This document shows, one piece after another, positions 24,357-26,986 of a stretch of DNA of 64,000 bases. Position 1 is the stretch's first letter, and every line of letters starts with the position of its first letter. The DNA comes from Syntrophotalea acetylenica (GTDB lineage Bacteria > Desulfobacterota > Desulfuromonadia > Desulfuromonadales > Syntrophotaleaceae), in NCBI RefSeq assembly GCF_001888165.1, contig NZ_CP015455.1, positions 62,001 to 126,000 on the forward strand, in the 5' to 3' direction. The position numbers were made by a program, and so were the translations under genes. The notes under the pieces are model-generated. The model was given only the letters and a program-made list of their open reading frames with translations. It was not told where the DNA came from and did not search any database.

Positions 24357-25376
24357 TCAGCCCGCGAACAATTGCAGAAAATGCGCAAACAAGGCCTTGT
24401 CCACATCCGCCACCTCCTGCTCCTTCATAATCCGCAGAGCGTCGAAGGTGGAGCGCCTGCGGTGATAGGGCCGTTCAGCGGTCAGCGCTTCATAGATATC
24501 GGCGATGCGGCAAATACGCGCATAGGGATGGATATCCGCCCCCATCTTTCCGCGGGGGTACCCTTTACCGTTATCTTTCTCATGGTGCTCAAGGGTAATG
24601 GTGCGGGCTTCATCGGTAATGATGCCGTTTTCTTCCAGGATCCGGAACCCTTCCTCCACGTGGCAATTCACGACCTGCCGCTCCTGCTCGGTCAGCGGGC
24701 CCGGCTTGTTGAGAATTTCAATGGGAATCCGGCATTTGCCGAGATCATGGAGGAAAAACCCCATGCCCAGGTTGTGCATGTCGTGTGCCCTGTCCAGACC
24801 GAAAAACAGCCGCGCCAGGGCCACCGCAAAAATTCCGACATTGGTGGAATGAACATAGGTGGCGTGGTCGAAAGAGGTCAACTGTATCAGATACCGGGTG
24901 GCCTGATCGCTCTGAACAATCAGATCGACCGTCGGCACGATCATATCGCAGGCTTGCCTGATGAAAGGACCTCGTGGATCATCGAAGGCACGTCGCATGG
25001 CGTCCCGGCAACTGGCCTGCACCACTCTCGCCTTGACAGACGCCTCAATGTGGGGATTCTTGACGATTTCATCGAGCCTGGTGCGCAATATGCGGCTGAA
25101 ACATCCCGAATCCTGCCCCTGCACGAACAGTTGCCCAATGCCAAAAAACTGCAATCTTTTCAAGGCGTCCCGGTCCAGGGTGCTGGACCGGGACGCCAGC
25201 AGTACGTATTGGCCGCTTGCGTTGCGCCGATATAGATCGCACGGAGCCTTGTCAACGCAATCGAGGATATCGACGTTTACGGAAAAAAATGATTCTTCAG
25301 CGGCAATTTCCGCCCCCTCGGGGGCTTTCCCGGCATCGGACAACCTCGGATTATCAGGATCTCCAGTTAAATCCAA
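24357..25376 (-). CDS. HD-GYP domain protein (cyclic di-GMP phosphodiesterase)
   Basis: 339 residues. An N-terminal DUF3391-like region at about 30-130 (FFSVNVDILDCVDKAPCDLYRR, then RDALKRLQFFGIGQLFV) precedes the HD-GYP domain: HSTNVGIFAVALAR near 175, HDLGK near 209, LEHHEKDNGKGYPRG near 263 carrying the GYP triplet, and CRIADIYEALTAERPY near 289. Metal and GYP residues are intact, so it should degrade cyclic di-GMP. It lies 22 bases after the aminotransferase gene, with the atp helpers downstream. No receiver domain is present, so its input is unclear. Confidence 0.92.
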   Translation of the reverse strand: MDLTGDPDNPRLSDAGKAPEGAEIAAEESFFSVNVDILDCVDKAPCDLYRRNASGQYVLLASRSSTLDRDALKRLQFFGIGQLFVQGQDSGCFSRILRTRLDEIVKNPHIEASVKARVVQASCRDAMRRAFDDPRGPFIRQACDMIVPTVDLIVQSDQATRYLIQLTSFDHATYVHSTNVGIFAVALARLFFGLDRAHDMHNLGMGFFLHDLGKCRIPIEILNKPGPLTEQERQVVNCHVEEGFRILEENGIITDEARTITLEHHEKDNGKGYPRGKMGADIHPYARICRIADIYEALTAERPYHRRRSTFDALRIMKEQEVADVDKALFAHFLQLFAG

Positions 25377-25398: not shown

Positions 25399-26703
25399 TC
25401 AGGACTCCAGATAAGCGGTTATGCTTTCGGCAATGGTCTGGAAAATACGTCTGAACTCTTTTTCATTGCGTTCCAGCAAAGTGATGCGGAAGCCCATTTC
25501 CCGAGTGCAGAAAGATGACAGGGGAACCACACAAATACCCGTTGATGCCAACAGATAGTAAACGAAACGTTTGTCAAGGGAGACCCCGGGCTGGTTGACA
25601 AGTCGCTCGACGAGAGCCCGAACCTCCTGGTTTTCGATGGGAAGAGTCTGCTGGTGGGTCAAACATTCGGTTTTTATCACGACGCTCATGTAAAAAGCGC
25701 CGTTGGTGCGGTTGACTTTGGTGCGGGGCACGTCTTTAAGGATTTCATACGCGATGTTCGAACAATGCTCGTAACGTGCCCGTCGTTCGTCGAGATAAGC
25801 GGGATACTCAGGATGACTCAGAATGTGGGGTATGGCCTTCTGCGGCAAGGTGGTGGAACAGACCTCCACCATCTTGGCGTTGAGAATGCTCTGGACATAG
25901 CGCTTGAATACCGGGTCCCGATCGGCATTATAGATCTCGATCCATCCGCAGCGCGCCCCGGGCCAGGGGACTTCCTTGCTGATGCCGCGCAACGCCATGC
26001 CGGGCACATCGCCGATCAGATCGGAAAGGGGCTTGGTGGACTGTCCGTTGTAAACGATATTCAGATAGACCTCGTCACAGATGACAAACAGGTCGTATTC
26101 CCGCGCGATGGCTATCATTTCCCGAAGAATTCTTTCAGGATAAACGGAGCCGGTCGGGTTGTCCGGATTGATAATCAGGATACCGGAAATCGCCGGATTG
26201 TATTTCACGGACAGGCGCAGGTCGTCCAGATCCGGATACCAGTGATTGTCAGGATCCAGGCGATAGGAGATCGGACGTTGCCCGGCATGCGCGGCCTCGG
26301 CCGAAGAATGGGTTGAATAGGTCGGTGACGGCCCTATGACCCGTGCTTCCCGGCGCAGGAAACCATAAACTTTCTGGATGGCGTCGCCCAAACCGTTAAA
26401 AAACAGAATATCATCGGAGGTGATCTGCGCCTTCCCCCGCTTGTTGGTGCGTTCCGCCAGATACTGACGGGTCTCCAGAACCCCCTTGGTCGGACAATAT
26501 CCGTAGGAACAGTCTTCCATAACCAGGTCGGCAATCAGTTTCTTCATCCATTTGGGGATTTTCTCACCCTTGGCCACGGGATCGCCGATATTCTCCATAT
26601 TGATCTTGATTCCCATCCGCTGGAGCGTATCGGCTATCTCGACGATAGCGCGAATTTCATAGGTCAACTCACCCGCACCGATATGTACGATATCGTTTCT
26701 CAT
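25399..26703 (-). CDS. Pyridoxal phosphate-dependent class I aminotransferase
   Basis: 434 residues of the fold-type I aspartate/alanine aminotransferase group. It has INMENIGDPVAKGE near the N-terminus, YGYCPTKGVLETRQYLA near 67, LFFNGLGDAIQKVY near 100, IINPDNPTGSVYP near 180, CDEVYLNIVYNG near 213 and the PLP-lysine region GISKEVPWPGARCGW near 244, plus Arg in FRITLLER near the C-terminus. The closest named relatives I can suggest are AlaA-like or tyrosine-type enzymes; the amino acid is not determined by sequence alone. No good ribosome site precedes ATG 26703. A small ORF and terminator stand upstream in the same orientation. Confidence 0.88.
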   Translation of the reverse strand: MRNDIVHIGAGELTYEIRAIVEIADTLQRMGIKINMENIGDPVAKGEKIPKWMKKLIADLVMEDCSYGYCPTKGVLETRQYLAERTNKRGKAQITSDDILFFNGLGDAIQKVYGFLRREARVIGPSPTYSTHSSAEAAHAGQRPISYRLDPDNHWYPDLDDLRLSVKYNPAISGILIINPDNPTGSVYPERILREMIAIAREYDLFVICDEVYLNIVYNGQSTKPLSDLIGDVPGMALRGISKEVPWPGARCGWIEIYNADRDPVFKRYVQSILNAKMVEVCSTTLPQKAIPHILSHPEYPAYLDERRARYEHCSNIAYEILKDVPRTKVNRTNGAFYMSVVIKTECLTHQQTLPIENQEVRALVERLVNQPGVSLDKRFVYYLLASTGICVVPLSSFCTREMGFRITLLERNEKEFRRIFQTIAESITAYLES

Positions 26704-26763
26704 AAATCTGACCGCTATCCCTTCCTAGGCCCCGGTTCACATCAACGACACATCAAACACCAA

Positions 26764-26796
26764 ATAAAAAAGCCATGAGCGTTTAAATCTCATGGC
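26764..26796 (-). terminator. Intrinsic terminator upstream of aminotransferase
   Basis: On the minus strand an 8-bp perfect stem, GCCATGAG with CTCATGGC and a nine-base loop (26772-26796), is followed at once by TTTTTTATT. It is a textbook rho-independent terminator located 60 bases before the aminotransferase ATG and 34 bases after the small ORF stop. Confidence 0.85.
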
Positions 26797-26829
26797 CTTA
26801 CTGCAGGATATCCCCGACTTCCCGGAAAT

Positions 26830-26931
26830 TCAGACAGCAAGACAACGAGCACCGGCGCGGCCTTGTGCCGCCCTGCTCTTCGCTCGCTCTGCCTGTGCCG
26901 GAACCATCCGCCGATCCAAAAGGTAAATCAT
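26830..26931 (-). CDS. Candidate 33-residue small protein or leader peptide
   Basis: A short ORF (MIYLLDRRMVPAQAERAKSR start; 33 residues, strongly basic with one Cys) preceded by an excellent ribosome site AAAAGGAGAA seven bases before ATG 26931, by a sigma-70-like promoter at 26958-26986, and followed by an intrinsic terminator at 26764-26796. No known leader-peptide codon run (repeated Tyr, Phe, His or Trp) is present, so classical ribosome stalling at a single amino acid is not obvious. It may encode a small RNA-binding or regulatory peptide, or be a leader controlling the aminotransferase gene. I do not recognise it. Conservation of the ORF is the deciding evidence needed. Confidence 0.5.
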   Translation of the reverse strand: MIYLLDRRMVPAQAERAKSRAAQGRAGARCLAV

Positions 26932-26957
26932 GGGATATTCTCCTTTTATCTTCCGGT

Positions 26958-26986
26958 TGGTTAGCACAGACAGCTGGGAAAGTCAA
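26958..26986 (-). promoter_or_regulatory. Sigma-70-like promoter for the small ORF
   Basis: On the minus strand TTGACT (26981-26986), a 17-base spacer and TAACCA (26958-26963) precede the small ORF by about 27 bases. The -35 has five of six and the -10 four of six consensus bases. Confidence 0.5.

Follow-up and report, generated by a model that had tools for sequence, protein, structure and literature searches.

The minus strand of the DNA analysed here (a stretch of 64,000 nucleotides from Syntrophotalea acetylenica, below called the window) carries a short leader that is very probably a ribosome-mediated, trp-type transcription attenuator, one which would read the supply of alanine and control the aminotransferase gene that follows. 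On that strand the elements stand in the order TTGACT, TGTGCTAACC, Shine-Dalgarno sequence, 33-codon ORF, terminator and aminotransferase start (Table 1). The original prediction had listed a promoter, a ribosome site, the ORF, a terminator and the aminotransferase start, and all of these are found as it described them, although the -10 region is weak. Its proposal of an attenuation-leader layout is now strongly supported: this layout is conserved across the class, the ORF is enriched in alanine at the level of the amino acid, and two alternative helices both covary. A consensus scan of the window lists neither the leader promoter nor the terminator, the former because its -10 region is a poor sigma-70 match, the latter because its loop has 9 nt where the scan allows at most 8; with the scan blank on both elements, the case is therefore built on conservation and not on consensus matching. 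Chance is ruled out by the recurrence of the same element order before the aminotransferase across two orders.

Table 1. Leader elements and downstream genes, with positions counted from the first letter of the window
Feature	Position	Strand	Conservation or remark
-35 hexamer TTGACT, leader promoter	26981..26986	-	TTGAC(T) in equivalent position before the aminotransferase class-wide
TGTGCTAACC, extended -10 region, weak sigma-70 match	26959..26968	-	invariant in four congeners; TGTGnTAnC in most relatives
Shine-Dalgarno AAAAGGAGAA of the leader ORF	26938..26947	-	GGAG-type site kept in congeners
Leader ORF, 33 codons and stop TGA, peptide MIYLLDRRMVPAQAERAKSRAAQGRAGARCLAV, 8 Ala	26830..26931	-	indel-free homologues in five genus members
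Putative alanine sensing stretch, codons 12-22 (Ala12, 14, 17, 21, 22)	26866..26898	-	a ribosome waiting here is predicted to leave region 2 free
Region 2, antiterminator half-site GCTCGTTGTCTTGCTG, within the last ORF codons	26835..26850	-	homologous helix covaries
Region 3, CAGTAAGGCCATGAG	26789..26803	-	pairs with region 2; overlaps terminator 5' arm
Intrinsic terminator hairpin, 11 pairs, -14.5 kcal/mol, loop 9 nt	26769..26799	-	
Terminator T-tract	26762..26771	-	
PRK06855-family class I/II aminotransferase, probable alanine transaminase, controlled gene, ATG at 26703	25399..26703	-	
HD-domain (HD-GYP-like) gene, 22 nt downstream of the aminotransferase	24357..25376	-	outside the conserved leader

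In the mechanism that we propose, RNA polymerase would transcribe the leader as a ribosome translates the 33-codon ORF. Since region 2 lies within the last codons of that ORF, it would be covered by a ribosome at the stop codon and uncovered with a ribosome at the Ala codons. When charged alanyl-tRNA is ample, the ribosome would arrive at the stop codon and cover region 2, leaving region 3 to form the terminator, and transcription would end before the aminotransferase gene. When alanine is scarce, the ribosome would wait at the alanine codons, which in the window are codons 12-22, and the free region 2 would capture region 3 as an antiterminator, allowing the aminotransferase gene to be transcribed; its product, which homology marks as a glutamate-pyruvate (alanine) aminotransferase, would then restore alanine. 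We infer that the leader responds to alanine shortage in the cell in this way.

A search with the 33-residue peptide gave matches in three congeners (50-55% identity), each immediately 5' of the orthologous aminotransferase, and throughout the order the region upstream of the orthologues has an equal layout, with diverged peptides. The original prediction had looked to relatives for conservation of both the ORF and the terminator position; both recur before the orthologue in 78/89 same-order genomes, as found by a rule that is blind to amino-acid content (a terminator and a preceding ORF of 18-50 codons, a score for start and ribosome site, and a stop at most 60 nt from the hairpin). The leader-less genomes of the order belong mainly to one family, f18, which has a similar promoter near the gene and neither ORF nor terminator. 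In a second order most of the sampled genomes show the element order, and about 27 genomes there have an Ala-rich leader ORF. In Geobacterales-like families, which belong to the class as well, the orthologous aminotransferase is preceded by leaders like MNGIALNMAAAPARAISAAASFAAGLPAAM and by a terminator of the GGCCGTGGG type, and at these loci (L186-L217) the ORF starts 31-34 nt after TTGAC in 27 genomes, a count that leaves out two mis-picked ORFs and in which second-order starts were set by promoter distance and not by the 5'-most ATG. This start coincides with the expected start of the transcript, so that the Geobacterales-like leader ORFs are probably translated from a leaderless transcript. 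The names of orders and class were inferred from named relatives and established taxonomy.

Outside the class, orthologues of the aminotransferase are mostly without a leader. An Ala-rich ORF and a terminator, differing in sequence, were nonetheless seen before orthologous aminotransferases there at L155, L156, L160, L260 (G233) and L261 (G287), and these out-of-class leaders suggest either a wider spread or convergence. There is also some variation among the relatives themselves: one congener (L012, in G003) has ~180 nt extra between terminator and aminotransferase start, one genome (G153) has a second aminotransferase copy without leader (L219) in addition to its leader-bearing copy, and one orthologue (G188:C194:21093-22391) contains one in-frame TAG.

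Against an attenuator, the absence of a diagnostic codon run from the peptide had been raised. Reading the relatives removes this objection: the codon in question is that of alanine, and the window has a thinned copy, with 8 Ala in 33 residues, a longest run of two, and an enrichment that is weak in the window alone. The leader peptides of relatives have outright runs, for example SAAAAAAAA and MAAAAAAAAKAAAA, and further Ala-rich leader ORFs from the order are MTICQQTIETIPSAARASSAAAAAAAAMLSACCPGRNC, MMFSLKGYTMAAAAAAAAKAAAAGCRTHARILAR and MIHTAAAAARAIQAASSSLTTVHHP. Over the 78 leader ORFs alanine makes up 31.3% of residues, compared to 8.3% and 4.5% in the other two frames. At least 4 Ala in 10 codons are reached in 78/78 of them, while 0/21 control ORFs, picked elsewhere by the same rule, do so; from this control set 14 ORFs had been removed which were themselves leaders of the alanine family picked up by the control windows. 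Columns occupied by Ala are replaced in 25% of within-family comparisons versus 48% elsewhere, and synonymous Ala-codon differences number 136; few replacements together with many synonymous changes point to selection that acts on alanine as an amino acid in the leader ORFs.

Within the genus of the window, Ala17, 21 and 22 are present in 5/5 genomes and Ala12 and Ala14 in 4/5, and we infer that the thinned Ala stretch still senses alanine. It is unlikely that the copy in the window is an attenuator for some other condition, such as arginine supply or a general slow-down of translation, with the Ala run lost in Syntrophotalea-like bacteria. Arg is indeed the second commonest leader residue (9.7%) and occurs often in the window's peptide, and this genus has a short Ala run, but the alanines just listed are among the residues upstream of region 2 that the congeners have kept, and the enzyme probably belongs to alanine metabolism.

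The alanine reading also requires a switch in the RNA, and region 2, at the end of the ORF, is complementary to region 3, in the 5' arm of the terminator, in nearly all leaders. In 39 leaders, aligned from sequence alone, the helix formed by regions 2 and 3 is 90.6% paired and changes on both sides in 6/9 pairs; its covariation is 0.306, whereas shuffles give 0.247 (none of 500 reaches the native value) and slid registers no more than 0.099. The terminator helix, which shares region 3, is 97.4% paired, with both-side changes in 7/10 pairs. Both helices thus covary above 500/500 shuffles, a control that does not preserve relatedness, and far above the slid registers, a control that does. Antiterminator and terminator are mutually exclusive, as alignment columns 91-100 are common to both helices. 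When region 3 was swapped between families, the native region 2:3 pairing beat region 3 from other families in 84/105 cases. A test for ungapped 12-mer complementarity was non-significant for several Syntrophotalea-like leaders, including that of the window, and is only partly informative because region 2 is gapped in this genus.

These helices bear on the original prediction's other suggestion, that of an independent small protein or small RNA, which is disfavoured: conservation falls on the Ala codons, on the half-site of the antiterminator and on the terminator, and in every case the aminotransferase follows immediately. A functional, basic 33-residue peptide, whose gene would end at the hairpin and leave the aminotransferase to a separate promoter, would fit the good ribosome site and the C-terminal ARCLAV that is kept in congeners. 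It is nevertheless very improbable, given that class-wide conservation of the peptide is limited to stretches rich in Ala and to those residues whose codons form region 2, that the end of the ORF covaries with a terminator arm, and that the leader always lies immediately 5' of the orthologous aminotransferase and is single-copy in the window's genome, where the only match to our leader covariance model is the window leader itself (E = 6e-13). Searched against Pfam and NCBIfam profiles, the 33-residue peptide gave no match.

To model the attenuation switch, we folded 93 leaders with a ribosome-sized mask and scored antiterminator pairing before the 3' arm of the terminator is made. The mean antiterminator pairing of the 5' arm was 0.76 with the ribosome at Ala and 0.17 with the ribosome at the stop codon, where terminator pairing was 0.94. 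For the window's own genome (G000) the fixed rule chose Ala26, which is too near region 2, and the leader stayed below its shuffles until codons were scanned one by one; with the A site at codons 12-22 antiterminator pairing then came to 0.83-0.91, the antiterminator being favoured up to codon 23 and lost afterwards. Dinucleotide shuffles of the free segment already reach 0.59 (native 0.76), and folding by itself is therefore weak evidence. In many full-length thermodynamic folds the terminator wins despite the stalled ribosome, so that the switch must be kinetic and decided during transcription, which is also how established attenuators work. Within these limits the model has a stall at the Ala codons freeing region 2, and arrival at the stop masking it.

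As the original prediction had stated, no named riboswitch matches: a search of Rfam with the window and 20 relatives gave no family, T-box, riboswitch or known leader at gathering score, and the best permissive match was isrK (E = 2.1). 6S RNA (RF00013) was considered and rejected, as it has no match at the leader; two copies above cut-off lie elsewhere in the same genome (C1:2155067 and C1:1780340). The least probable reading is a small RNA that acts in trans, has its 3' end at the terminator and contains the ORF only by coincidence: a terminated transcript of ~190 nt is expected and the leader folds strongly (z = -3.6 against shuffles), but the reading frame and its Ala codons are preserved with synonymous variation, and Rfam yields neither a family for the leader nor a 6S RNA at this site.

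The enzyme under the proposed alanine control is a PRK06855 aminotransferase (762 bits, cut-off 443), which NCBIfam names no more specifically than 'aminotransferase'. Among solved structures E. coli AlaA (4cvq, E = 7e-43) is the closest relative, and the transaminase 1xi9 is also among the nearest. AlaA is the glutamate-pyruvate (alanine) aminotransferase of E. coli, and 1xi9, an aminotransferase of Pyrococcus furiosus, served as search model for AlaA (PMC4094517). Four other class I/II aminotransferases of the window's genome were tested, and no alanine transaminase profile scores above its cut-off with any of them. By homology, the controlled enzyme is likely an alanine transaminase. The HD-GYP-like gene behind it (24357-25376, minus strand) is possibly co-transcribed with the aminotransferase, as an operon, in the window's family.

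Besides the leader, ten weaker secondary matches to the covariance model were inspected, of which three stand before DAHP synthase and the rest resemble ordinary terminators. The three, weak matches in family f18, where the aminotransferase has no leader, adjoin a Phe-rich leader (MRFSFSSFFNFYFWCDFFRSS...) before DAHP synthase: at L246 (G061), L247 (G052) and L248 (G068) a Phe-rich leader peptide (MRFSFSSFFNFYFWCDFFRSSARGGGLLA in G061) is followed by hairpins, a terminator and then 3-deoxy-7-phosphoheptulonate synthase. The Phe-rich leader before DAHP synthase is likely a phenylalanine or aromatic attenuator, and it suggests that leader-peptide attenuation operates for further amino acids in these bacteria.

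In a 2013 survey, the attenuators then in Rfam were those for His, Leu, Thr and Trp, and those for Ile/Val and Phe had also been characterised (PMC3766115). Like the trp, his, leu, thr, phe and ilv leaders, the one described here has a translated ORF rich in the amino acid that would be regulated, a terminator and an antiterminator that share a strand, and downstream a metabolic gene that probably matches; unlike them, it would be specific for alanine, and it has no Rfam match. Two alanine-related cases come closer. Upstream of alaS in Streptomyces lividans lies alaL, a leader whose peptide has 6/22 Ala and for which attenuation was proposed, of a type that its authors called previously undescribed (PMC8079986). 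It shares with our leader the Ala-containing peptide and the proposed attenuation, but it concerns a tRNA synthetase gene in one genome of an actinobacterium, whereas here a probable biosynthetic transaminase is preceded by the leader throughout a class, with both helices covarying. For the mycobacterial whiB7 upstream ORF, PMC13236596 describes how ribosomes stalled in it allow transcription past the terminator, with aspC, an alanine biosynthesis gene, expressed as a result; work cited there makes a link to alanine starvation. The two systems would be alike in this route from a stalled ribosome to the expression of an alanine gene; that of whiB7 works through a transcription factor and has antibiotics as a further trigger, whereas our leader lies immediately before the transaminase gene that it would control.

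Leaderless Cys attenuators of mycobacteria were reportedly described by Canestrari in 2020 as translation attenuation. They resemble the leaders predicted for Geobacterales-like members in having a leaderless leader ORF, and differ in specificity (cysteine there, probably alanine here) and in level (translation attenuation there, proposed transcription attenuation here). Our literature search on alanine attenuation, in which coverage of subscription papers was thin, returned only the alaL and whiB7 leads. We conclude that the leader very probably represents a new alanine specificity and a new lineage of a known attenuation mechanism.

As far as we found, no attenuator that controls alanine biosynthesis directly had been established before; if true, the present case would add an amino-acid specificity to a textbook mechanism. 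It also illustrates that a diagnostic codon run can be overlooked when a single genome is read, and the leader covariance model is ready for use. We consider it likely, with somewhat less assurance than for the leader of the window, that control of an alanine transaminase by a previously unrecognised alanine attenuator is ancestral to Desulfuromonadia and extends over the whole class (Desulfuromonadales and Geobacterales). The leader would be translated from a Shine-Dalgarno site in one of the two orders and leaderless in the second, and a few Desulfobacterota outside the class would have looser or independent versions. Between the two orders, leader translation from a ribosome site can be compared, in a natural setting and for one controlled gene, with leaderless translation and, if our reading is correct, the likely alanine transaminase would be identified for a whole class of bacteria that includes metal reducers and syntrophs.
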